This document shows, piece after piece, positions 1,674 through 40,954 of a DNA stretch of 64,000 bases. How positions within the stretch are numbered: position 1 is the first letter of the stretch; each line of letters starts with the position of its first letter. The translations under genes and the position numbers were made by a program. Source of the stretch: Bacillus sp. Marseille-Q1617 (lineage in GTDB: Bacteria > Bacillota > Bacilli > Bacillales > Bacillaceae_B); assembly GCF_903645295.1 (NCBI RefSeq), contig NZ_CAHJXM010000003.1, positions 310,001-374,000 of the forward strand, in the 5' to 3' direction. A model generated the notes under the pieces. That model did no database searches, was not told the origin of the DNA, and saw only the letters and a program-made list of their open reading frames with translations.

Positions 1674-2054
1674 ATGGAAAACTTAACGTTCTTTACTTAT
1701 CCAAGCTGCACCTCTTGTAGAAAAGCAAAAAAATGGCTGAATGCAAACTCGATCGAATTTGATGAACGTCATCTTTTTAGGGATACACCCACTCATGAGG
1801 AACTGGTTCAATTACTCTCCCTCACGACAGAAGGACTTGATGAAATCCTGGCCACCCGGAGCCAGACATTCAAAAATTTAGGGAAAGATGTGGATGACCT
1901 CCCGCTATCCCAGGTGATTGACTTAATTGTTCAGGAACCGAAGCTTCTTCGCCGCCCTTTATTAACTGACGGAAAAAAGCTGGTTGTCGGATTTAATCCG
2001 GATGGCCTGAAAAGCTTTTCAGGCAAAAAGCCCAGTTTGAAGAAGAGCAGTTGA
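1674..2054 (+). CDS. mgsR: MgsR, Spx/ArsC-family stress regulator
   Basis: This 126-residue protein has the thioredoxin-like ArsC/Spx fold. The redox CxxC switch CTSC lies at residues 12-15, and the family motifs RDTPT (about 37-41) and RRPLL (about 91-95) are present. In B. subtilis MgsR (YqgZ) binds RNA polymerase and controls part of the general stress regulon, and it sits at this same place between yqgY and the comG operon. The ATG has a strong AAGGAGG site. Length equals the B. subtilis protein. Spx itself is the paralogous alternative, but context and motifs favour MgsR. Confidence 0.85.
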   Translation: MENLTFFTYPSCTSCRKAKKWLNANSIEFDERHLFRDTPTHEELVQLLSLTTEGLDEILATRSQTFKNLGKDVDDLPLSQVIDLIVQEPKLLRRPLLTDGKKLVVGFNPDGLKSFSGKKPSLKKSS

Positions 2055-2078
2055 TTGAAGGAATGATGAGGAGAATCG

Positions 2079-2114
2079 AAAAGGCAGGCACCTTATGGGA
2101 TGCCTGCCTTTTCT
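2079..2114 (+). terminator. terminator after mgsR
   Basis: The stem AAAAGGCAGGCA pairs with TGCCTGCCTTTT around a 10-base loop, 25 bases past the mgsR stop. Its 3' side runs directly into the right half of a hairpin-repeat unit. Confidence 0.8.
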
Positions 2115-2403
2115 TATGCTTGTCGTCTCTGAACGAGCCGCCTCCGCTTTTCTTGTATCCAGCTCCAGGGCTTAGAGGCTCGAGGTCATAAGTCAAGCCA
2201 CCCAAAAAGGCAAAGAACGCCTTTCCGGGTGGCTCGACTTATGCTTGTCGCCTCTGGGCGAAGCCCTTCCGCTTTTAATTGTGTCCAGCTCCGGCGGCTA
2301 GGAGCTCGAGGTCATAAGCTAAACTTACCAAAAAGGCAAAGAGCGCCTTTCCGGTAAGTTCATCTTATGCTTGTCGCTCCTGAACGAGCCGCCTCCGCTT
2401 TTC
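2113..2403 (+). repeat. HR1 hairpin repeats: right-half fragment plus two full units
   Basis: 2113-2152 is a lone right half (CTTATGCTTGTCG ... GCCTCCGCTTTTC). It is followed by a type-B unit at 2153-2277 and a type-A unit at 2281-2403. Each unit folds as nested arms. In unit B the outer arm is GGGCTTAGAGGC with GCCTCT...AAGCCC and the inner arm is AAGCCACCC with GGGTGGCTC. In unit A the outer arm is GGCTAGGAGC with GCTCCT...GAGCC and the inner arm is AACTTACC with GGTAAGTT. The shared centre is AAAAAGGCAAAG.RCGCCTTTCC. The cluster lies between convergent mgsR and tRNA-Gln. Confidence 0.9.
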
Positions 2404-2406
2404 GTA

Positions 2407-2478
2407 CTGGGCTAGCTGGATTCGAACCAACGCATGTCGCAGTCAAAGTGCGATGCCTTACCGCTTGGCTATAGCCCA
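2407..2478 (-). tRNA. tRNA-Gln (anticodon TTG)
   Basis: Read on the minus strand this is a complete cloverleaf. The acceptor arm is TGGGCTA with TAGCCCA, the D arm is GCC...GGC, and the anticodon stem TCGCA/TGCGA encloses the loop CTTTGAC (anticodon TTG). The T arm GTTGG/CCAGC encloses TTCGAAT. The discriminator is G and the CCA end is not encoded. It is a solitary tRNA gene lying tail-to-tail with mgsR. Confidence 0.95.
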
Positions 2479-2676
2479 TTGTTGTTGCTACATTGGATAG
2501 TATGAGAAGGCGGGCAAAAAAATATACAATGTTTTAAAAGTTTTCTTCAAATTTTAACTTAAGTGAGAAGTGTCCGCTATTTTTGAATCAAAATTGAACG
2601 AACTAAGCTTTAACATCAAAAAAAATAAAGGGTTTTGTAAATTTTTGTCGTATATATTATTTATAGAACATGAAAG

Positions 2677-3762
2677 GTGGTGCCAATCACGATTTATCAA
2701 TCGGTAGAGTCTCTTTCAGAAATTATGCTCAAAGATGCAATCAGTAATGATGCATCCGATATTCATCTGATTCCCCGACTCCATGATTACAACATCCAGT
2801 TCCGTAAAACGGGGGTGCTGTCCCCATTCCAATCGGTTCCTCTCGAACAAGGAGAGCGCCTGATCGCTCATCTAAAGTTCATGGCATCAATGGATATCGG
2901 AGAAAAACGGAAACCTCAAAGCGGTTCCTTCAACATGACCATCAGGAACTCACCCGTTTCCCTCAGAATATCGACCCTGCCAACCAATCACCTCAAAGAA
3001 AGCCTCGTCATACGGATACTCCCAACAAAGCTCCATATATCACTCGAACAAATGTCGCTTTATCCCTCTTCAGCCAAAAAACTCCTTGCCCTTCTGATGT
3101 ATTCCCATGGCCTCATCATTTTCACAGGACCGACCGGCAGCGGAAAAACCACTACCTTGTACTCGCTAGTCCATCACTGTTCATCCGCCCTCAACCGCAA
3201 TGTGATCACATTGGAAGATCCCATCGAAAAAGATCATGAAGATATGGTACAGATCCAAGTGAATGAAAAAGCGGGGATCACCTATTCAACAGGATTGAAA
3301 GCCATTTTGAGGCATGATCCCGATATCATCATGGTGGGCGAGATCCGCGATAAGGAAACGGCGGAAATTGCTATAAGGGCTAGTTTGACGGGGCATTTAG
3401 TATTGACAACATTACACACCAAAGACGCAAAGAGCGCTGTTTACAGGTTGATGGAATTGGGGATTCACTGGCATGATATCCAACAGACATTGATTGCGGT
3501 GTCGGCTCAACGGCTCCTGAAGCTACGCTGTCCAGTCTGTGACTTGGACTGTAAGGGTGAGTGCAAAGGAAGGGGAGCGGTTAAAAGGGCTTCAGTTTAT
3601 GAGATTGTGACGGGGAGCGCTCTAAAAGAAGTTATTAAAGAAGCAAGAGGGGAAGAGGCTTACTATCAGTATCCTACTCTTCGATCATTGATTAACAAGG
3701 GGGTGGCACTGGGATTTGTTCCAGAAGCTGAGTTCCGGAAATGGATTCATGAGGAAACCTGA
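2677..3762 (+). CDS. comGA: ComGA competence pseudopilus assembly ATPase
   Basis: This is the type II/IV secretion ATPase that powers the competence pseudopilus for DNA uptake. It has the Walker A GPTGSGKTTT (about residues 149-158), the Asp box around LEDPIE, Walker B DIIMVGEIRD (about 216-225) and the His box HLVLTTLHT. A late Cys cluster (CPVC...C...C, about 287-299) resembles the zinc site of PilB-like ATPases. The start is uncertain. GTG 2677 overlaps the GAAAGGTGG site, and ATC 2686 or ATT 2692 fit the spacing better, but all give nearly the same protein. It is the first gene of the seven-gene comG operon. The upstream AT-tracts include an imperfect AATA-N5-TTTT near 2626, not a clear ComK box pair. 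Confidence 0.95.
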   Translation: MVPITIYQSVESLSEIMLKDAISNDASDIHLIPRLHDYNIQFRKTGVLSPFQSVPLEQGERLIAHLKFMASMDIGEKRKPQSGSFNMTIRNSPVSLRISTLPTNHLKESLVIRILPTKLHISLEQMSLYPSSAKKLLALLMYSHGLIIFTGPTGSGKTTTLYSLVHHCSSALNRNVITLEDPIEKDHEDMVQIQVNEKAGITYSTGLKAILRHDPDIIMVGEIRDKETAEIAIRASLTGHLVLTTLHTKDAKSAVYRLMELGIHWHDIQQTLIAVSAQRLLKLRCPVCDLDCKGECKGRGAVKRASVYEIVTGSALKEVIKEARGEEAYYQYPTLRSLINKGVALGFVPEAEFRKWIHEET

Positions 3763-4771
3763 TGAACAGGGGAAATTTCTGAAGCGAATAGGTGATCTGC
3801 TTGAGAAAGGCTACACATTTTCAGAAGCGATTGATTTTTTACTTTTGCCTGGGAGGAATGGCCCTAAGAAATTAAGGAAGAGGATCACCCACTCCCTTCA
3901 AAAAGGAGAATCGCTTTCCACCATCTTTGACCGGCAGCTAAAACTGCCGAAACAGGTTTCCGCTCAAATTTTTTTCGCTGAACACCATGGTCAGATGGGG
4001 GAGACACTAATCGAAGCAGGCAGTTACCTCCTGAAAAAGAATGAGGAGAAACAAAAGGTACTCCGGGTCATTCAGTATCCAGTCTTATTGGTACTGGTGG
4101 CGATTATTTTGATGGTGCTCCTTCGCAATATCCTGTTTCCCCGTTTTCAAGCCTTATACAGTTCACTTGGATACGAACAGACAAGCAGCTTGAATTATCT
4201 GTTGTGGTTTATTGAAAGCTTTCCTACTTATTTTTTTGGATTCATGCTGATCCTGGCAATCGCTGCCCCCTTCCTGTACTTCTTCCAACACAAACTTTTT
4301 CGAGTGAAGCATTTCATTTTCCTTACAAAGATTCCGCTGCTGTCTTATTTCATCCAACACCATCATACTCACTTCTTTGCTAGGGAACTCAGCTTTCTCC
4401 TTAAAAACGGCGTGTCCATCACGGAATCTTTAACGATCATTGAAAAACAGTCATTCCGTCCTTCCATGCAATACATTTCGAAGAAGCTCCTGAATGGATT
4501 GAAAGAAGGAAAACCGCTGTATGAATGCACTGCGGGTTTGTCACTTTTTCAGCAAGAGTTTTCATATGTGGTTGCTCATGGTCAAAAGAACGGGAGGCTC
4601 GCCGATGAGTTGAAACTGTTCAGTGACATTTGCTTTACGGAACTTGAAGAAAAAGGGAATCAATTATTGAGGTACATCCAGCCAACGATTTTTGCCTTCG
4701 TCGGGTTATTCATCATGGCCATTTATTTTTCAATCATGATGCCGTTATTCCAAATGATGCAAGGGATCTAA
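3749..4771 (+). CDS. comGB: ComGB pseudopilus inner-membrane platform protein
   Basis: This type II secretion F-domain (GspF/PilC) protein of about 340 residues has two cytoplasmic four-helix F domains and three predicted membrane segments (roughly residues 105-130, 155-180 and 315-338). It recruits ComGA and assembles the pilins. The start is set at ATG 3749, overlapping comGA by 14 bases, because the product then starts MRKPDEQGKF just before the first F domain. An in-frame ATG lies further upstream inside comGA. It is translationally coupled to its neighbours. Confidence 0.92.
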   Translation: MRKPDEQGKFLKRIGDLLEKGYTFSEAIDFLLLPGRNGPKKLRKRITHSLQKGESLSTIFDRQLKLPKQVSAQIFFAEHHGQMGETLIEAGSYLLKKNEEKQKVLRVIQYPVLLVLVAIILMVLLRNILFPRFQALYSSLGYEQTSSLNYLLWFIESFPTYFFGFMLILAIAAPFLYFFQHKLFRVKHFIFLTKIPLLSYFIQHHHTHFFARELSFLLKNGVSITESLTIIEKQSFRPSMQYISKKLLNGLKEGKPLYECTAGLSLFQQEFSYVVAHGQKNGRLADELKLFSDICFTELEEKGNQLLRYIQPTIFAFVGLFIMAIYFSIMMPLFQMMQGI

Positions 4772-4798: not shown

Positions 4799-5116
4799 AT
4801 GCTGAATAATGAAAAAGGATTTACCATGATCGAAATGATGATTGTCCTGCTTGTCATTTCGGTTCTATTATTTGTGACAATCCCAAATGTCACCAGTCAA
4901 AGTAACAAGATCAATTCCAAAGGGTGTGAAGCGTTCATGAACATGGTGGAGGGGCAGGTGGAAGCTTATAAAATGGATGGAAACACGGAACCGGTCAGTA
5001 TGGCTGAATTAGTGACAAAAAAGTATTTGAACCCAGAATATCAAAAATGTCCTGACGGCAGCTCCCTTACAATCGATGCGGGAGGGAACGTGGTAAAAGT
5101 AAGTGTGGGAGATTAA
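4799..5116 (+). CDS. comGC: ComGC major competence pseudopilin
   Basis: This 105-residue class III prepilin has a short basic leader and the prepilin peptidase site KGFTMIEMM (cleaved between Gly and Phe, with Glu at +5). A hydrophobic N-terminal helix follows (MIVLLVISVLLFVTI). Two later Cys residues (KGCEAF and QKCPDG) can form the intramolecular disulfide known in ComGC. It is the main subunit of the DNA-uptake pilus, processed by ComC and assembled by ComGA/GB. The ATG has AAAGGGAGG upstream. Confidence 0.95.
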   Translation: MLNNEKGFTMIEMMIVLLVISVLLFVTIPNVTSQSNKINSKGCEAFMNMVEGQVEAYKMDGNTEPVSMAELVTKKYLNPEYQKCPDGSSLTIDAGGNVVKVSVGD

Positions 5117-5558
5117 AAAACGCCTCCACACTCAAAATGGTTTTACTTTCATAGAAATGATGATTGTCTTACTTGTATTCTCCATCCTGATAAACTTCGC
5201 TGCTTTTTCAACAGAACCATTAAAAAAGCAGACTGTAAAAAGTCTGTTCATTTCCCAGCTCCAATCAGATCTCTACTTGATACAAAGCCACAGTATTTTC
5301 TCGCAATCTTCTCTCACTTTAGTTTTCTATCCCTATGCAAATAAATATATCGCGAAAGATTATTACGGGACCACTCTGGTTTCCAGGGAACTGCCGGCCG
5401 GAATTGAGCTTTCTGAACTGAACAGGTTGAATGAAATCGTATTTAACTCCTCTGGAAATACGAATCGGTTCGGTCCAGTGTATTTCAATTATGAAAGCTC
5501 CACTATTAAGCTATCATTTCAAATCGGGCAAGGGAGATTTTATGTACAGGAACTCTAA
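5103..5558 (+). CDS. comGD: ComGD minor pseudopilin
   Basis: This 151-residue minor prepilin has the processing motif NGFTFIEMM followed by the helix MIVLLVFSILINFAAF, and the rest is a soluble domain. GTG 5103 is the start; it overlaps the comGC stop by 14 bases, which implies translational coupling. The protein is part of the tip or initiation complex of the competence pilus. Confidence 0.9.
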   Translation: MWEIKKRLHTQNGFTFIEMMIVLLVFSILINFAAFSTEPLKKQTVKSLFISQLQSDLYLIQSHSIFSQSSLTLVFYPYANKYIAKDYYGTTLVSRELPAGIELSELNRLNEIVFNSSGNTNRFGPVYFNYESSTIKLSFQIGQGRFYVQEL

Positions 5559-5856
5559 TGGATTTTCAATGGCTGAGAATGTAATTGCCCTCAGCTGCTT
5601 TATGATGATAATGACTTTTTTCCTTCCTTTTTGCATAAAGATGATGATGACTCTGGAGGAAAAACAGCATAGGGTGGAAGCCTTGAAGTTTCTGCAGGAA
5701 GGAATGGAACAGGCGATTGTTACGAATGACTTCAAATCTTATAACCGTACGTTTGAAGGTATCCGCTACTCCTTCAGCTGGGAAGATGTGAACACGGATG
5801 CTTGTGTATCTTATACAAAGGGGAGTGTCATTAATGAAGTCTGTGCTGCAGAATAA
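5542..5856 (+). CDS. comGE: ComGE minor pseudopilin
   Basis: This 104-residue protein starts MYRNSNGFSMAENVIALSCF, with a prepilin-like NGFSMAEN motif and an N-terminal membrane helix. ATG 5542 is preferred over longer in-frame starts because the prepilin leader should be short and GGGAG precedes it. It overlaps comGD by 17 bases. Confidence 0.87.
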   Translation: MYRNSNGFSMAENVIALSCFMMIMTFFLPFCIKMMMTLEEKQHRVEALKFLQEGMEQAIVTNDFKSYNRTFEGIRYSFSWEDVNTDACVSYTKGSVINEVCAAE

Positions 5857-10016: not shown

Positions 10017-10060
10017 TCTAGTATGACCAAATGTTGCAAGGAATATTGGCGAATGATGGC

Positions 10061-10220
10061 AAGGGGAGAGACTGTAACTTACAGCGCCGAAGGAGCAAAC
10101 ATCTTAAGTGTGAATCTCTCAGGCAAAAAGACTCTTGGCGGACGCAGCTCTGGAGAGTGTTTCCATATGGAAACCACCAAAGGGGAAAGCCGTTTTACCG
10201 GTAAACTTTCAGGTGAAAGG
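10061..10220 (+). ncRNA. tandem glycine riboswitch (gcvT element)
   Basis: Two glycine aptamers sit in series. The first has GGGGAGAG, then GCGCCGAAGGAGCAA, then AATCTCTCAGGCAAAAAGAC. The second has TCTGGAGAGTG, CACCAAAGGGGAAAGCC and AACTTTCAGGTGAAAGGACAG. These are the conserved blocks of the Bacillus gcvT leader, which binds glycine cooperatively and switches the operon on. It stands directly before an intrinsic terminator and gcvT, so glycine binding should favour antitermination. Confidence 0.95.
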
Positions 10221-10266
10221 ACAGAGAAACTTCTTTTGGAAAAAGGGGTTTTTCTGTCCTTTTTTC
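10218..10266 (+). terminator. riboswitch-controlled terminator before gcvT
   Basis: GGACAGAGAAAC pairs with GGTTTTTCTGTCC and is followed by TTTTTT. The left arm shares bases with the end of the second glycine aptamer (AAAGGACAGAG), giving the mutually exclusive pairing expected of a glycine-ON switch. Confidence 0.88.
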
Positions 10267-31972: not shown

Positions 31973-32006
31973 ACTTGTCGAATTTTCTTCATTTCTGTCT
32001 TCCTGG

Positions 32007-32293
32007 TCGCTTGTCGCTCCTGCCCAAGCCGCCTCTGCTTTTTGATTGTCCAGCTGCAGGGCTTAGAGGCAAATATCATAAGGCCAAACCGGCCAAGGAG
32101 GCAAAGAACGCCATCATGTCCGATTCGCCTTATGCCACCCGCCTCTAACCAAAGCCCTTCCGCATTTCAATTATCCAGCTCCGGCGGCTAGGAGCTCGAG
32201 GTCATAAGCTAAACTTACCAAAAAGGCAAAAAACGCCTTTCCGGTAAGTTCATCTTATGCTTGTCGCTCCTGCCCAAGCCGCCTGCGCTTTTA
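32007..32293 (+). repeat. HR1 hairpin repeats: fragment plus two full units
   Basis: A right-half fragment (32007-32043) precedes a type-B unit at 32046-32168 and a type-A unit at 32171-32293. The A unit has the same inner arms (AACTTACC and GGTAAGTT) as the unit at 2281-2403, but its right outer arm carries GCTCCTGCCCAAGCC. The B unit has weaker inner pairing (AAACCGGCC against GTCCGATT). With the array before it, this fills most of the 700-base gap between yqhY and nusB. Confidence 0.9.
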
Positions 32294-33835: not shown

Positions 33836-35203
33836 ATGGAACAGGATCAGTCGCGATATTTAACGGTACAAGCTCTGACAAAGTACATAAAACGAAAATT
33901 CGATAGGGATCCGCATTTGTCTAATATTTTTGTAAGGGGAGAAATTTCAAATTTCAAGCAGCATTCCAGCGGTCATATGTACTTCACTTTAAAAGATGAC
34001 CGTGCAAGGATTCTCTCAGTCATGTTTTCAAGTAATAACCAACATCTCAAGTTCCGGCCAGAAAGCGGAATGAATGTATTGATACGGGGAGATCTGTCCG
34101 TCTATGAAGCAGGCGGACAGTATCAGATCTATGTGAAAGAAATGCAGCCGGATGGAATCGGTGAACTTTACCTGGCGTATGAACAATTAAAGGAAAAGCT
34201 TGAGAAAGCAGGTTACTTTGATCAAAGCAGAAAAAGAATGATACCGAAGTTCCCCTCAAGAATTGCGGTTGTGACTTCCCCGACGGGTGCTGCCATACGG
34301 GATATCATTACAACAATAAAGAGAAGGTACCCAATCTGTGAAATCCTGATTTTTCCTGCCCTGGTACAAGGCGAGAGGGCTGCCGGCTCTATTGCGGAAG
34401 CCATCAGAAAAGCGAATGAATATGAGGGAGTCGATGTGCTGATTGCAGGAAGGGGAGGCGGCTCCATCGAAGAACTTTGGGCATTCAATGAGGAAATAGT
34501 GGCCAAAGCAATTGTCGATTCGGCTATCCCTGTCATATCCGCTGTCGGGCATGAAACAGACTTTACGATTGCAGATTTTGTTGCAGACCTTAGGGCACCG
34601 ACCCCCACCGGTGCGGGAGAGCTGGCTGTCCCTCACATCGATGACCTGCTTGAAAGGATCATGAACCGAAAATTAAGGATGATTAAATCATTTAAGGTGA
34701 AAATTCAAAGTGAGCGGAATCGATTGGACAGTTTATCAAAATCCTATTCGTTAAGGAATCCGCGTATCCTGTATCAACAAAAAGTTGAGCATGTAGACAG
34801 GCTGACGGACCAGCTGCAAAAAAATATCACACTGCATGTCAGGCAGCAAAAGGATGTTCTTACCGGACTGCACTCCAGACTTCAGCGTGTTCACCCTTCA
34901 CAGATCCTGAAGATTCAGGAAGAAAGGGTGACATTTTTGCAGGGACAAGTGAACAAGCAGTTTAGAGCAGTGCTGAGGGAAAAGGGACATCGGTTTCAAT
35001 CGGTCATTTCCACCTTGGATGCACTGAGTCCACTGAAAATCATGGACAGGGGATACAGCCTTGTCTATGGGTCAGATGGGGGATTGATAAAATCCTCACA
35101 GCAGGTAGCGAAAGGTGATAAACTCAAAATAGATGTAAAAGACGGAACAATACAATGTGAAGTAGATTTGGTAAAGGAGCGGGTTGAAAATGGCAAAAAC
35201 TAA
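33836..35203 (+). CDS. xseA: exodeoxyribonuclease VII large subunit
   Basis: This 455-residue protein has an OB-fold N-terminal domain (about residues 10-105), a catalytic domain with RIAVVTSPTGAAIRDI, the GRGGGSIEELWAFN motif and HETDFTIADFVADLRAPTPT, and a long coiled-coil C-terminal part that binds XseB. It degrades single-stranded DNA from both ends. ATG 33836 is chosen (AAGGAG ten bases away); GTG 33830 is also possible, and a further in-frame start at 33764 lacks support. Confidence 0.94.
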   Translation: MEQDQSRYLTVQALTKYIKRKFDRDPHLSNIFVRGEISNFKQHSSGHMYFTLKDDRARILSVMFSSNNQHLKFRPESGMNVLIRGDLSVYEAGGQYQIYVKEMQPDGIGELYLAYEQLKEKLEKAGYFDQSRKRMIPKFPSRIAVVTSPTGAAIRDIITTIKRRYPICEILIFPALVQGERAAGSIAEAIRKANEYEGVDVLIAGRGGGSIEELWAFNEEIVAKAIVDSAIPVISAVGHETDFTIADFVADLRAPTPTGAGELAVPHIDDLLERIMNRKLRMIKSFKVKIQSERNRLDSLSKSYSLRNPRILYQQKVEHVDRLTDQLQKNITLHVRQQKDVLTGLHSRLQRVHPSQILKIQEERVTFLQGQVNKQFRAVLREKGHRFQSVISTLDALSPLKIMDRGYSLVYGSDGGLIKSSQQVAKGDKLKIDVKDGTIQCEVDLVKERVENGKN

Positions 35204-35423
35204 AGAAGAACTGTCATTTGAAGAGGCAATGGAGCAATTGGAAGGCATTGTTGAGCAATTGGAAGAAGGCGAGGTGCCTTTGGAAAAGGCATTGCAGTTC
35301 TATCAAAAAGGAATGGAACTTTCAAAGTATTGTCATGATACCCTCAACAAAGCAGAAAAACAGCTAACAAAAATGATCACGGATGAAGGAGAAAAAACCT
35401 TCGAAATCAAAGAGGGGGAGTAA
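35190..35423 (+). CDS. xseB: exodeoxyribonuclease VII small subunit
   Basis: This 77-residue helical hairpin protein has the signature LSFEEAMEQLEGIVEQLEEGEVPLE (given here as its start and end positions 9-33). Several copies bind the XseA coiled coil. ATG 35190 follows AAAGGAG and overlaps xseA by 14 bases. Confidence 0.93.
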   Translation: MAKTKEELSFEEAMEQLEGIVEQLEEGEVPLEKALQFYQKGMELSKYCHDTLNKAEKQLTKMITDEGEKTFEIKEGE

Positions 35424-35426
35424 TGG

Positions 35427-36317
35427 GTGAGCCTTCATGTTGATCTAGGTACTTTTCAGCAAAAGTATAAACAAAAGATTGAAGAAGAGATGATCGGTTC
35501 TGTCCAGGAGAAAGCCATGCCCTCAACATTAAAAAATGCCATGGCGTACTCTTTGGAAGCCGGCGGAAAAAGAATCAGACCGCTTCTCTTATTAGCTGTC
35601 ATTAAAGGATATGGAAAGGATCCACAGCTTGGAATGAAGACAGCGGCTGCGCTTGAAATGATTCATACATATTCTCTCATCCATGATGATCTCCCATCGA
35701 TGGATGATGATGACTTAAGAAGGGGAAAGCCGACAAATCACAAGGTATTTGGTGAAGCTATGGCAATCCTCGCCGGGGATGGTCTGCTTACGCAAAGCTT
35801 TCAGCTTATTGCAGAAGACACCTTTCTTACCAGTGATCAAAAAATTAAGTTAGTGGGCCTCTTGAGCCGCTGTGCAGGCCCTGAAGGTATGGTTGGCGGG
35901 CAGGCAGCTGATCTTGAAGGGGAAAATAAAAAGCTGTCTGTTGCAGAATTGGAATCGATCCATGTTCATAAAACAGGGAAGTTACTTATTTTCAGTGCGC
36001 TTGCGGGAGCAATCATTTCAGGTGCTTCAGATGAAGAACAACACAAACTTGAAGAATTTGCCTATCATATCGGCCTGGCATTTCAAATTCAGGATGATAT
36101 CCTCGATATTGAAGGAGCAGAAGAATTGATCGGAAAGCGGACCGGGAGCGATGAATCCAAACAGAAAAGCACCTATCCAGGGCTCTTGTCCATGCATGGA
36201 GCCAAGGGAAAACTTACGTTTCATTTTGATGAAGCATTGGTTTCCCTGGATGGACTCAGTATGGATACGGAATTGCTTAGGCAAATTGCCCATCTCATAG
36301 TCAACCGCAACCATTAA
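35427..36317 (+). CDS. ispA: farnesyl diphosphate synthase IspA
   Basis: This 296-residue trans-prenyltransferase condenses isopentenyl diphosphate with dimethylallyl and geranyl diphosphate. The first Asp-rich motif is DDLPSMDDDD (about residues 85-94), with GGKRIRP before it. The second is the QIQDDILD block (about 220-227). GTG 35427 starts three bases after xseB behind GAGGGGGAG. It lies just before the OLE RNA and oapA and then dxs, so isoprenoid genes flank the RNA. Confidence 0.95.
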   Translation: MSLHVDLGTFQQKYKQKIEEEMIGSVQEKAMPSTLKNAMAYSLEAGGKRIRPLLLLAVIKGYGKDPQLGMKTAAALEMIHTYSLIHDDLPSMDDDDLRRGKPTNHKVFGEAMAILAGDGLLTQSFQLIAEDTFLTSDQKIKLVGLLSRCAGPEGMVGGQAADLEGENKKLSVAELESIHVHKTGKLLIFSALAGAIISGASDEEQHKLEEFAYHIGLAFQIQDDILDIEGAEELIGKRTGSDESKQKSTYPGLLSMHGAKGKLTFHFDEALVSLDGLSMDTELLRQIAHLIVNRNH

Positions 36318-36330
36318 GGTTCTTTATTAT

Positions 36331-36358
36331 TTGAGGAAATCATAAAATATGATATAAT
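36331..36358 (+). promoter_or_regulatory. SigA promoter for the OLE RNA
   Basis: TTGAGG (36331-36336), a 16-base spacer and a perfect TATAAT (36353-36358) lie 13 bases after ispA. Transcription would start near 36365, right where the conserved RNA begins. Confidence 0.75.
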
Positions 36359-36364
36359 GTGATT

Positions 36365-36950
36365 ATAAACATTTGGGTGGTGCAGTATTCTAGTCAACCC
36401 ACCAATCCTGAAGGTGGGCCTAAAAATCCACTAAAGGGCACATCGATGAAGTTCCTGGACTTGGCTTGAGGCGCCCAGCTTTGGGTCATATCTGGGAGTA
36501 AGGCTTGAGGGCGATCCACAATGGCATGTGGGCGTTGACCCGCAAGCCGCGGAGGCTCTGTATCTTACGCTGGCATAAAGCATGTGCAATAAGTGCAGAG
36601 TATGAACCTGCGATTGTGATTTTGATCACTAGCAGCGTAGCCTGCCTTGAGTGAAGAGAGAGGGGATTATGGTTACAAAGTACACATCAGTTGGCCATTG
36701 ATATGTGCTTTTTCGTCCATATGAAATCCTTTTTGCAAAAGAGGCTAAGGATTGTGTTAAGGGTTGTTGAGGAAAACTCCTAGACTGTTCATTGGACATA
36801 TATCGGGGATTATAGTGCGGACTAAGTGGTAATCCAGTCTAGCTTGTGGTGACGCGGCTAAGTCGGGTTTAAAGGGAAACCGCCGGTATGGCAACATCCG
36901 GTACCTGATTGGGAAAACCTACTGGACCTAAGCTGCAATTTTTACCCTAT
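36365..36950 (+). ncRNA. ole: OLE RNA (ornate, large, extremophilic RNA)
   Basis: About 590 bases between ispA and oapA hold no reading frame of note but many helices. Examples are CCCACC/GGTGGG (36398-36417), AGCC/GGCT around GCGGA near 36545, GTGAT/ATCAC (36616-36629), CACATCA with TGATATGTG (36683-36707) and GGTTT/AAACC (36866-36881). Size, purine-rich conserved 3' section and location directly upstream of oapA in an ispA-dxs operon are those of OLE RNA. In Alkalihalobacillus halodurans this RNA forms a membrane ribonucleoprotein with OapA and is needed for growth in cold, ethanol and altered magnesium. The ends are estimates: the 5' end from the promoter, the 3' end from the last conserved-looking block. 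No terminator separates it from oapA. Confidence 0.88.
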
Positions 36951-37020
36951 ATATGACCATCCAATTACATAGAATTCGAATGAATATTTTACACAGTAGA
37001 AACGGTGTGTGTAGACGATA

Positions 37021-37641
37021 ATGAATGATACATTGAAAAACTCAATAAAATGGAGTGTCAGTATTGCCGTTATCACATTCGTGTTAGCGGCTATTTTTTC
37101 AGTTACATCCAATATGGTATTAAACGGTGTGGCCTGGGGTACGGGGTTATTCGTAGTGCTCATCATCGTATGCATCGGGATCTTCTTTGACATGTTGGGG
37201 ATTGCTTCCACTGCTGCTGATGAAACCCCTTTTCATGCAATGGCAGCCAAGAAAGTATACGGTGCGAAATATTCGATCAAGATCGTAAGGAATGCGGATC
37301 GATTTGCAAGTTTCTGTAATGATGTAATCGGGGATATCTCAGGAATCATAAGCGGTACAGCCTCCGCCATCGTCATCATTCAATTAGCGGTTTCCTTCCA
37401 GCTGGAAGGCGGATCGATCAAGGAATATATAGTCAGTGTTACATTGACAAGTATCATCGCCTCTCTGACCGTTGGCGGCAAAGCTCTTGGGAAAACGTTT
37501 GCGATTACGTATTCAAAGGATATAATATTTAGAGTTGGCACCGTGCTTCAATTTATAGAAGATCGGTTCCATATTGTTCTGATTAAAGATAAAAAAGATC
37601 AAAAAAAGAAAAAGCGCAAAATCGAGAAACAAAATATATAG
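37021..37641 (+). CDS. oapA: OapA, OLE-associated membrane protein
   Basis: This 206-residue protein has four predicted membrane helices (about residues 11-30, 40-60, 104-128 and 133-153), very hydrophobic and basic, with a Lys-rich tail. A DxxxD pair (D101 and D105 in CNDVIGDISG) matches the conserved motif of OapA. It binds OLE RNA and anchors it to the membrane. The gene starts about 70 bases after the RNA. Its ribosome binding site is weak (GGTGTG), so expression may depend on RNA processing or coupling. It is followed by dxs. Confidence 0.9.
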   Translation: MNDTLKNSIKWSVSIAVITFVLAAIFSVTSNMVLNGVAWGTGLFVVLIIVCIGIFFDMLGIASTAADETPFHAMAAKKVYGAKYSIKIVRNADRFASFCNDVIGDISGIISGTASAIVIIQLAVSFQLEGGSIKEYIVSVTLTSIIASLTVGGKALGKTFAITYSKDIIFRVGTVLQFIEDRFHIVLIKDKKDQKKKKRKIEKQNI

Positions 37642-37662
37642 TCATGAAAGTGAGTGGACCCA

Positions 37663-39555
37663 ATGGATTTACTATCAATAAAGGAGCCTTCTTTTTTGAA
37701 AAACATGAGTAAAGAGCAATTAGAAGAGCTCAGTCAAGAGATACGCCAGTTTTTAATTGAGAATTTATCGAAAACTGGAGGTCATATTGGTCCAAACTTG
37801 GGTGTCGTGGAACTGACTGTTTCCCTTCATAAACATTTTAACAGCCCCGTTGATAAAATCATTTGGGATGTAGGCCATCAATCTTATGTACATAAGATAT
37901 TAACAGGGCGTGCGTGTCAGTTTGATTCGTTAAGGCAATATAAAGGGTTGTGCGGTTTTCCGAAGAGAAATGAAAGCGAGCATGATGTCTGGGAAACCGG
38001 CCATAGTTCAACCTCTCTCTCTGCAGCTATGGGAATGGCGATTGCGCGTGATGTGAAAAAAGAGAAATCATTCATCATACCTGTAATCGGGGACGGGGCA
38101 TTGACAGGCGGAATGGCTTTGGAGGCATTGAACCATATCGGGCATGAAAAGAAAGATATGATCGTAGTCCTGAATGATAATGAAATGTCGATTGCCCCTA
38201 ATGTAGGAGCCCTTCATAGTGTGCTTGGAAGGCTGCGCACTGCCGGTAAATACAATTGGGTTAAAGATGAACTCGAGTATATCCTTAAACGTATCCCTGC
38301 AGTCGGCGGGAAACTTGCAAGTACGGCGGAACGGGTGAAGGACAGCCTGAAGTATCTGTTTGTATCCGGCATGTTCTTCGAAGAACTTGGATTTACTTAT
38401 CTAGGCCCGATTGACGGTCATGACTTTGAGGAGCTGGATGAAAACATCCAGTATGCCAAGAAGACGAAAGGACCTGTACTGCTCCACGTCATCACGAAAA
38501 AAGGAAAGGGATTCCATCCTGCCGAGTCTGACAAAAAAGGAGACTGGCATGGTACCGGACCTTATAAAATCGATACCGGTGATATTATTAAACCGGTCAA
38601 TGCACCCCCTTCCTGGAGCGGTCTGGTGAGTGAAACGGTGAGAAAGATCGCGAGAGAAGATGATCGTGTAGTTGCCATCACTCCGGCAATGCCTGTCGGA
38701 TCAAAACTTTTAGGATTTGCTGAAGAATTTCCTGAGCGGATGTTTGATGTAGGTATTGCAGAACAGCATGCAACAACAGTGGCTGCAGGTCTTGCGACTC
38801 AGAATATGAAGCCATTTTTGGCCATTTATTCTACTTTCCTGCAAAGGGCATATGATCAGGTCGTTCACGATATCTGCCGTCAAAACCTGAATGTTTTCAT
38901 CGGAATCGACCGAGCAGGGCTGGTCGGGGCTGATGGAGAAACACACCAAGGTGTATTCGATATCGCCTTCTTGAGACATCTGCCTAATATCGTCATCATG
39001 ATGCCGAAAGATGAAAATGAAGGCCAGCACCTGGTCAATACGGCAATGAATTATGATGACGGTCCGATTGCATTAAGATATCCAAGAGGAAACGGATATG
39101 GGGTTCCCATGGATCAGGAGTTGAAAACCATCCCGATCGGGAAATGGGAAGTGTTGAAAGAGGGCAATGACGTCGCAGTCCTTACTTTCGGCACTACAAT
39201 ACCGATGGCACTTGAAGCAGCCAATGAACTGGAAGACCAAGGAGTTTCAGTCCGTGTAATCAACGCTAGATTCATCAAACCGATGGATGAAGAGATGCTG
39301 AAATCAATCTTTGATGAAGACATTCCGGTCCTGACGGTTGAAGAAGCTGTCCTGCAAGGCGGATTCGGCAGTTCTGTGCTTGAATATGTCCAGGAAAACG
39401 GCTACCGGAATGCGGTAATCGAAAGAATCGGAATCCCTGATTATTTCATCGAGCACGGAAGCGTCAAAGAATTGTTAAACGAGATCGGTATGACGAAAGA
39501 AAATATCATGGATCGAATCCTGACAATCACTCCAAAAAAACAAAAAAGGGCTTAA
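37663..39555 (+). CDS. dxs: 1-deoxy-D-xylulose-5-phosphate synthase
   Basis: This 630-residue thiamine-diphosphate enzyme condenses pyruvate and glyceraldehyde-3-phosphate, the first step of the MEP isoprenoid pathway. Motifs are [14 protein letters not shown] (near 40-53), [11 protein letters not shown] (near 68-78), the ThDP-binding GDGALTGGM...LNDNEMSI and the [15 protein letters not shown] block of the transketolase central domain. ATG 37663 ([10 protein letters not shown]) is taken as start over GTG 37654 because it matches the family. Confidence 0.95.
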
Positions 39556-39562
39556 CTAATAT

Positions 39563-40381
39563 ATGAAGTCAAAAAAACAACGTGTAGACGTACTCTTGGT
39601 TGAAAGAGGACTTATTGATACAAGAGAAAAAGCAAAAAGAGCAATCATGGCAGGGCTTGTCTATTCAAATGAGGAGAGGCTGGACAAACCAGGTGAAAAA
39701 GTAAGTGAAGATGCCCAGCTTACAATCAAGGGTAAAATGATGCCATATGTGAGCCGGGGCGGACTGAAGCTTGAAAAGGCGTTGAAGGTGTTTGATATTG
39801 AGGTTGAAGATAAAGTCATGATCGATATCGGATCTTCGACAGGCGGATTTACTGACTGCGCCCTTCAAAATGGTGCAAAAATGTCCTATGCCATCGATGT
39901 CGGCTACAACCAGTTAGCCTGGAAGTTAAGACAGGATGAAAGGGTTGTGGTAATGGAAAGAACCAATTTCCGATATGTCACCCCCGCTGATTTACCGGGT
40001 GACATGCCCTCATTTGCATCGATTGATGTTTCATTCATTTCACTTTCATTAATTCTGCCGGTCCTAAAAACACTCCTGGTTCCGGGTGGAGATTGCATCG
40101 CACTGATTAAACCTCAATTCGAAGCGGGTAAAGAACAAGTCGGCAAGAAAGGGATCGTCCGCGATCCCAAAGTTCATAACGCTGTTATTGATAAAATCAT
40201 GGACCTTGCTGTGAAAGAAGGATATGACATCCATGGGTTGTCATATTCCCCTATTACCGGCGGGGACGGCAACATAGAATTCCTTATCCATATCCGCTGG
40301 ACTGGAAAAGAAAGTGAAGGGAAATCACTTCTCACCATCACTCCTCAACAAGTTATTGAAGAGGCACATAGTCAGTTTTAA
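39563..40381 (+). CDS. yqxC: TlyA-family rRNA methyltransferase (YqxC)
   Basis: This 272-residue protein has an N-terminal S4 RNA-binding domain (about residues 5-65, RVDVLLVERGLIDTREKAKR) and an FtsJ-like methyltransferase domain with the SAM motif IDIGSSTGGFTDC (about 92-104) and the catalytic K-D-K-like residues. TlyA proteins 2'-O-methylate 16S/23S rRNA; hemolysin activity has been reported in some species. The order dxs-yqxC-ahrC-recN is conserved. Confidence 0.92.
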   Translation: MKSKKQRVDVLLVERGLIDTREKAKRAIMAGLVYSNEERLDKPGEKVSEDAQLTIKGKMMPYVSRGGLKLEKALKVFDIEVEDKVMIDIGSSTGGFTDCALQNGAKMSYAIDVGYNQLAWKLRQDERVVVMERTNFRYVTPADLPGDMPSFASIDVSFISLSLILPVLKTLLVPGGDCIALIKPQFEAGKEQVGKKGIVRDPKVHNAVIDKIMDLAVKEGYDIHGLSYSPITGGDGNIEFLIHIRWTGKESEGKSLLTITPQQVIEEAHSQF

Positions 40382-40400
40382 GCTAATAATCAATGAAAGA

Positions 40401-40616: not shown

Positions 40617-40631
40617 GGTATGTAAGCTTGT

Positions 40632-40954
40632 GGCCGCCTCCGCTTTCATTGTCCAGCTCCGGGGCTTATGCCACCCGCCTCTGAGCAAAGCCGCCTCCGC
40701 TTTTCACTGTCCAGCTCCGGCGGCTAGCCCCTCGAGGTCATAAGCTAAATGGTCCTAGAAGGCAAAAGGCCGCCTTCTAGGCCCATTCATCTTATGCTTG
40801 TCGGGGCTGAGCGAGCCGCCTCCGCTTTTCATTGTCCAGCTCCGGGGCTTAGAGGCACATGTCATAAGCCAAAGCGGCCAAGAAGGCAAAAAGCGCCTTC
40901 CTGTCCGCTTTGGCTTATGCCACCCGCCTCTGAGCAAAGCCGCCTCCGCTTTTC
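40632..40954 (+). repeat. HR1 hairpin repeats: deleted unit plus two full units
   Basis: After a short right-end scrap (40632-40646) comes a type-B unit with its centre missing (40649-40705). A full type-A unit follows at 40707-40830, with outer arms GGCTAGCCCC and GGGGCT...GAGCC and extended inner arms ATGGTCCTAGAAGGC and GCCTTCTAGGCCCAT. A full type-B unit at 40832-40954 has inner arms AAAGCGGCC and GTCCGCTTT. With HR2 this fills the 660-base gap between yqxC and argR. Confidence 0.9.

Follow-up and report, generated by a model that had tools for sequence, protein, structure and literature searches.

Does transcription that starts at a bacterial OLE RNA gene run on into the protein gene behind it? 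The question is raised by a locus of Bacillus sp. Marseille-Q1617 in which an OLE RNA and the gene for the membrane protein OapA are placed between ispA and dxs. An initial annotation, made from the letters alone, had proposed that a single transcript probably carries both, as no terminator lies between the RNA and oapA. Here, we examine this locus within the window, i.e. the whole stretch of 64,000 nucleotides that was analysed (contig NZ_CAHJXM010000003.1, positions 310,001 to 374,000 of the forward strand), and compare it with related loci and genomes.

The OLE RNA, its promoter and OapA

The features of the locus are given below in window coordinates.

35427..36317, plus strand: ispA (farnesyl diphosphate synthase), the upstream neighbour; Pfam PF00348 and NCBIfam FPPsyn above cut-off
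36331..36358, plus strand: ole promoter, TTGAGG, 16-nt spacer and extended -10 TGATATAAT; from sequence and conservation upstream of OLE
36365..36365, plus strand: predicted transcription start, an A, 7 nt past the -10 box; offset kept among motif-bearing loci
36361..36976, plus strand: OLE RNA (RF01071); cmscan 517.1 bits, full length
36373..36381, plus strand: terminal helix, 5′ strand TTGGGTGGT; pairs with 36956-36964, unpaired in the Rfam model
36693..36696, plus strand: GGCC of loop L9.3; from sequence, with the kissing-loop role in the OLE dimer taken from PMC12286853
36956..36964, plus strand: terminal helix, 3′ strand ACCATCCAA; pairs with 36373-36381
36966..36971, plus strand: TACATA just 3′ of the terminal helix, in the OLE 3′ tail; from conservation
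37021..37641, plus strand: oapA, 206 aa; homology to the ole-adjacent protein of L133
37066..37091, plus strand: hairpin in oapA, GCCGTTATCAC-ATTC-GTGTTAGCGGC, codons 16-24; from fold energy, near-invariant stem and single copy
37092..37099, plus strand: T-tract TATTTTTT behind the hairpin, codons 24-27; from conservation
37654..39555, plus strand: dxs; NCBIfam TIGR00204, 966.7 bits

The covariance model RF01071 matches positions 36361-36976 of the plus strand over model positions 1-616 of 616, with 517.1 bits (cut-off 50) and an E-value of 8.9e-149, which settles the proposed identity of the RNA by the very check that the initial annotation had named. Variant OLE RNAs 1 and 2, described in PMC11332333, belong to the same RNA class; the window RNA fills 616 of 616 model positions and is thus of the full-length type. 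The GGCC expected in L9.3 is present at 36693-36696. Between the window and its relatives L001, L002 and L035 the RNA is 96-98% identical, above the 74-87% of the flanking coding genes, as strong selection on an RNA would predict. The locus L133 matches Halalkalibacterium halodurans: all seven OLE primer sequences of this species, as given in PMC12054373, are present in it with a spacing of exactly 637 nt.

Both ends of the RNA are unpaired in the Rfam model. A helix between 36373-36381 and 36956-36964 nevertheless closes the molecule, as 408 of 460 cells are paired against a shuffled maximum of 348 (46 distinct rows of 69; four rows were skipped for want of an anchor) and most outer positions show several pair types. 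The terminal helix is probably P1 of the literature, by an inferred numbering. The hexamer TACATA behind it is absent from the Rfam consensus though strongly conserved in Bacillales: it occurs in 28/28 Rossellomorea and near-kin loci, in 15/46 others (0.7 expected) and in 25/29 loci of a second set (2.0 expected). Its reading as a site outside OLE was dropped, since the 637-nt RNA of L133 includes it.

OLE RNAs had been called rare. This does not hold within the order, where 174 of 299 genomes drawn carry a match even under stricter search filters, with which weak matches can be lost. The close relative G004 also encodes an OapB relative (PDB 7k9b, E 2.7e-32) and a YbxF/OapC relative (PDB 4lck, E 9.3e-28). 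A dxs tree places the window near Rossellomorea, with [Bacillus] enclensis (L002) and R. aquimaris AcN35-5 (L035) as nearest rows. Elsewhere in the window, a tandem glycine riboswitch lies at 10053-10226 (two aptamers, 69.4 and 43.2 bits), and dispersed intergenic repeats at 31984-32292 and 40631-40941 flank the operon on both sides; their families measure 39-103 nt and are 61-90% alike.

The promoter that had been proposed at the 5′ end of the RNA is found as described, TTGAGG-16-TATAAT at 36331-36358, with a TG preceding the -10 box, and this extended -10 is conserved upstream of OLE. The motif TGNTATAAT occurs within 85 nt upstream of OLE in 59 of 75 loci (0.96 expected; L062 left out, and L080, which has the motif on its proper strand, scored as a miss), and 45 of these 59 have an A at the predicted start offset. 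A second set comprised 29 loci, after three of 32 that have no anchor had been set aside; there the motif is exact in 13 (0.4 expected), and the relaxed form TGNTA[TA]ANT is found in 26. L079 and L080 stand in both sets, species may recur across them and many loci are closely related, so that these counts are not independent. A generic promoter scan of the region did no better than shuffles (7 found, 6.1 expected); the evidence for the promoter is therefore its conservation. A candidate conserved promoter in the 3′ part of oapA (37499-37526) was rejected, as codon conservation around it is unremarkable save for F160.

The 206-aa product of 37021-37641 shares 54% identity over 194 residues (E 2e-78) with the protein encoded next to ole in L133, in agreement with its annotation as OapA. 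The DxxxD pair attributed to it is present as well: D101 and D105 are among the columns conserved to at least 98% in 55 aligned OapA sequences. The Pfam CNNM match is weak (19.8 bits, under the cut-off of 28.4). The start codon lies 44 nt past the end of the OLE match. The Shine-Dalgarno sequence before oapA is weak in Rossellomorea; the segment GAAACGGTGTGT at 36999-37010, 5′ of oapA, is kept in most Rossellomorea and near-kin loci. Among 78 loci gathered by OapA similarity, 73 have an OLE match upstream. Two of the other five (L059, L076) are at contig ends, and L051, L053 and L077 represent a second OapA. These last three loci (positions 5001-5600) harbor a second OapA-like gene without adjoining OLE or hairpin; their hosts, two Virgibacillus and one filed as Roseburia, have OLE and a closer OapA elsewhere in the genome.

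CNNM proteins were also counted in the genus group. Each of its 33 OLE-positive genomes has two to four CNNM matches, and each of the three OLE-negative ones has seven. The latter, G017-G019 (loci L156-L158), lack OLE and OapA, and their seven CNNM (MpfA-type) matches each provide a within-genus case of the published anticorrelation. Two of the CNNM-matching proteins of the group, both from G004, were examined: each contains CBS domains, and the complete one also contains CorC_HlyC.

Taken as a whole, the locus consists of a gene for a full-length OLE RNA, preceded by an extended -10 promoter of its own, and of oapA behind it. The H. halodurans locus likewise has a full-length OLE RNA, an own promoter and oapA directly behind; the window differs in its host, a Rossellomorea relative, and in an OapA that is 54% identical. 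The locus is thus a new member of a known system in this relative. An own promoter of H. halodurans ole is already in print (PMC9723947), so that the promoter here is a confirmed instance and no discovery.

A conserved hairpin within oapA

The interval between the OLE match and oapA (36977-37020) contains no terminator that we could find, and this part of the initial proposal stands. The conclusion that one transcript carries both is incomplete, as a terminator-like hairpin lies inside the gene at 37066-37099. This element covers oapA codons 16-27. Its stem of 11 bases has one fixed mismatch and encloses a 4-base loop that is free to vary, and a T-tract follows. In the window, the hairpin folds with -14.1 kcal/mol (z -5.0, shuffle mean -4.4), and the 26-mers of the other copies listed reach -12.0 to -13.8 kcal/mol. 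With a d'Aubenton-type score of our own, it is the best plus-strand terminator-like site of 35000-40400 (7.5; the next scores -15.5). A minus-strand site at 40168 scores 14.6, above the hairpin, which means that the score is not specific by itself. A generic promoter and terminator scan did not list the hairpin, probably because the internal mismatch leaves only three perfect pairs beside the loop.

The hairpin is present in 75 of 78 Bacillales-type OLE loci (the window, L001-L045, L079, L080 and L126-L155), 72 of them without a mismatch in 22 fixed letters. The H. halodurans-matching L133 carries the same oapA hairpin with no mismatch. The three loci that lack it are two of Thermoactinomycetaceae (L041, L043) and L144. 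In the 32 distant loci (L046-L078 except L076), it was seen in the oapA of none. A run of TTTTT follows within 12 nt in all 75 OLE-positive copies. Across 51 distinct aligned sequences, all ten stem pairs are kept (510/510 cells); seven pairs are invariant, three vary on one side, and none changes on both. For lack of two-sided changes, the shuffle control is silent on structure and covariation gives no proof of an RNA form. Positions 8 and 19 of the hairpin fail to pair in every one of 17 OLE-positive and 22 OLE-negative distinct sequences, of which some are common to both groups; the mismatch is T.T, A.C, T.C or C.T.

As the element lies within a coding sequence, its letters might be fixed solely because the first transmembrane segment of OapA is constrained as protein, together with codon bias, and the residues IAVIT.VLAAIFS are indeed well conserved in Bacillales OapA. 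Codon usage speaks against this. In an alignment of 55 oapA genes, a single codon accounts for 96-100% of the sequences with the same residue at each of codons 16-18, 21-23 and 25-27, compared with a mean of 53% at 131 other codons. Outside the element only F160 is equally codon-fixed, and the neighbouring residue 20 is free. Codons 25 and 26 are fixed as ATT and TTT; the loop codons vary freely. Protein constraint is contradicted directly by the copies that stand outside an intact oapA, described below, and we regard it as extremely improbable.

Known RNA families do not account for the hairpin: no Rfam match above cut-off was obtained at 36940-37300, where the best was a greA leader (27.1 against a cut-off of 60), and none in 20 OLE-negative loci. 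A viral origin was considered and rejected, as the pattern has no exact match in viral contigs. Pairing of the OLE segment GUGGUAAU with a hairpin arm was likewise set aside, as a rough estimate gives several such matches by chance.

Thirty OLE loci are without the hairpin (L041, L043 and the distant OLE-matching loci). In 11 of them another terminator-like site occurs between the OLE end and about codon 87 of oapA, compared with 9 of 180 windows drawn at random from these loci; several of the 30 are close kin, and the control windows differ in spacer content. The Clostridium-type loci L058, L066 and L069 share a different hairpin in oapA (about +92 to +125), GCTACTAA/TTAGTAGC, with a varied loop and a T-run, perhaps a separate intragenic terminator.

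The hairpin in genomes without OLE

A single hairpin copy (up to two mismatches) per genome is found in 36/36 genomes of the genus, 33 with OLE and three without OLE and OapA. At the same threshold, among 299 genomes of the order, the hairpin is present in 167 of 174 OLE-positive and 40 of 125 OLE-negative genomes, and is missing from the remaining 7 and 85, respectively. A reversed control pattern gave 0 matches in the same genomes.

What surrounds the OLE-negative copies is informative. In the three genomes of the genus group without OLE and OapA, the gap between ispA and dxs retains an ole-like promoter and an almost unchanged stretch of about 33 nt of oapA. Of the 40 hairpin-bearing OLE-negative genomes, two are the scars L157 and L158, G268 and G309 were left out, and the remaining 36 were fetched. 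In 33 of these 36, ispA and dxs flank the hairpin and the stretch contains no intact oapA. The other three are L193, where it stands before dxs on a cut contig, L194, whose cut contig has an almost complete oapA, and L171, where the site is unrelated. Protein comparison found at most short oapA remnants (L160, L183, L156-L158). Reading frames across the element were checked in L159-L178, and oapA elsewhere in the genome in the genus group. In L170 (minus strand, 1944-3950 of the reversed locus) a hairpin-bearing oapA remnant runs in frame into dxs, an apparent loss of OLE. Among 37 OLE-negative copies, 22 have no hairpin mismatch at all; a five-T run within 12 nt follows in 29 and is absent in 8. 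When every second of 39 OLE-negative rows was scored, the hairpin ranked first among the plus-strand terminator-like sites over 2.6 kb in 18 of these 19 loci.

In these relatives the first gene to follow the hairpin is dxs. A TTGA/TATANT promoter precedes the hairpin in 30 of 36 leaders (the 33 above and L156-L158; 0.7 expected). A lax scan, run with no control of its own, found promoter-like sites between hairpin and dxs in 18 of the 36. Hence, a short dxs leader made of promoter and hairpin can persist in genomes that have neither ole nor an intact oapA at this place. As the OLE-negative genomes were picked for carrying the element, they show that the hairpin can stand without oapA and not how often it does so. 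Its persistence between ispA and dxs without an intact oapA indicates that selection acts on it irrespective of OapA.

A quick dxs tree of 90 rows requires at least nine changes of OLE status, at least three of them forced by starred branches; this is not a species tree, the branch of L031 is implausible and the count is blind to gain versus loss. The oapA remnants speak for loss of OLE over gain.

Could the element act as DNA? A dimer of a DNA-binding protein on the near-palindrome GCCGTTATCAC-N4-GTGTTAGCGGC might control transcription into dxs. Such an operator would fit the free 4-bp centre between nearly fixed half-sites, the single copy and the stem without compensatory double changes, and some OLE-negative variants shift towards symmetry (GTGTTAACGGC). 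However, an operator has no need of the T-tract, which is conserved on the dxs-sense side, and the distance from promoter to site ranges from about 20 to more than 700 nt. Moreover, the rare stem changes preserve RNA pairing while the same position stays mismatched. We consider the operator unlikely.

Alternatively, the hairpin could be a processing or protein-binding site on the oapA-dxs transcript, serving mRNA stability or autoregulation by OapA, OapB or another factor. The stem letters, fixed beyond what pairing needs, and the internal mismatch that is kept in all copies examined resemble specifically bound hairpins. Against such a site, oapA genes conserve the T-tract as strictly as the stem. 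Nor can OapA alone be the factor, since the element persists without an intact oapA beside it. A processing or binding site is thus quite improbable.

A proposed transcription gate before dxs

Structure and T-tract argue for a terminator, and the fixed letters argue for selection beyond pairing. We therefore favor an intrinsic terminator or attenuator gate, formed by the oapA hairpin and its T-tract, to which we assign from the sequence comparisons a probability of roughly 70%. With so strongly conserved a terminator-like hairpin over codons 16-27, OLE transcripts probably end at this point, and oapA is reached only by read-through.

The gate would operate as follows. Polymerase would start near 36365, transcribe the OLE RNA and continue through codon 15 of oapA. 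Most transcripts would then stop near 37099, giving a predicted precursor of about 735 nt that may be trimmed at its 3′ end to an OLE RNA of about 640 nt. For H. halodurans OLE RNA, 3′ processing is stated in PMC11332333. The fraction that reads through, together with read-through from the upstream operon, would yield the oapA-dxs mRNA. In this way, the hairpin could set how much of the abundant OLE RNA is made relative to OapA and to Dxs, the enzyme that opens the isoprenoid pathway. In Bacillus, RNA polymerase reportedly moves faster than ribosomes (PMC13323073), which would allow an intragenic terminator to act despite translation. A strong terminator in oapA would lower the output of OapA and Dxs unless read-through or another promoter compensates.

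The hairpin is akin to the intrinsic (Rho-independent) terminators and attenuators of Bacillus leaders in combining a hairpin with a close sense-strand T-tract between a promoter and the genes served. It differs from both in that it overlaps a coding sequence, its stem is near-invariant across genera and an internal mismatch is found in every copy examined; no aptamer or leader peptide was recognised, and no Rfam family matched. The near-fixed stem letters suggest that something reads the sequence itself. A more far-reaching and tentative reading, which we hold to be somewhat less probable than its negation, is a new family of regulated Bacillales attenuators. In these, a dedicated factor would read the stem and sense the membrane or isoprenoid state, gating dxs in its carriers and, where OLE is present, also the ratio of OLE to OapA, thereby tying the OLE complex to isoprenoid supply; the element, lodged in a protein gene, would have outlived that gene several times.

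What seems to be new here is a terminator-like hairpin inside oapA that persists without OLE and intact oapA. The abstracts, passages and parts of the OLE literature that were consulted contain no mention of a hairpin inside oapA, and listings of work on dxs leaders, attenuators and intragenic terminators show nothing recognisable for the site. The terminator passages found in PMC10898510 concern the ykoY riboswitch.

The hairpin offers a testable answer to two questions: how OLE RNA is balanced with OapA, and why ole sits among isoprenoid genes. Furthermore, ole-oapA knock-outs made with or without the hairpin may differ in dxs expression, a possible confounder of published phenotypes.
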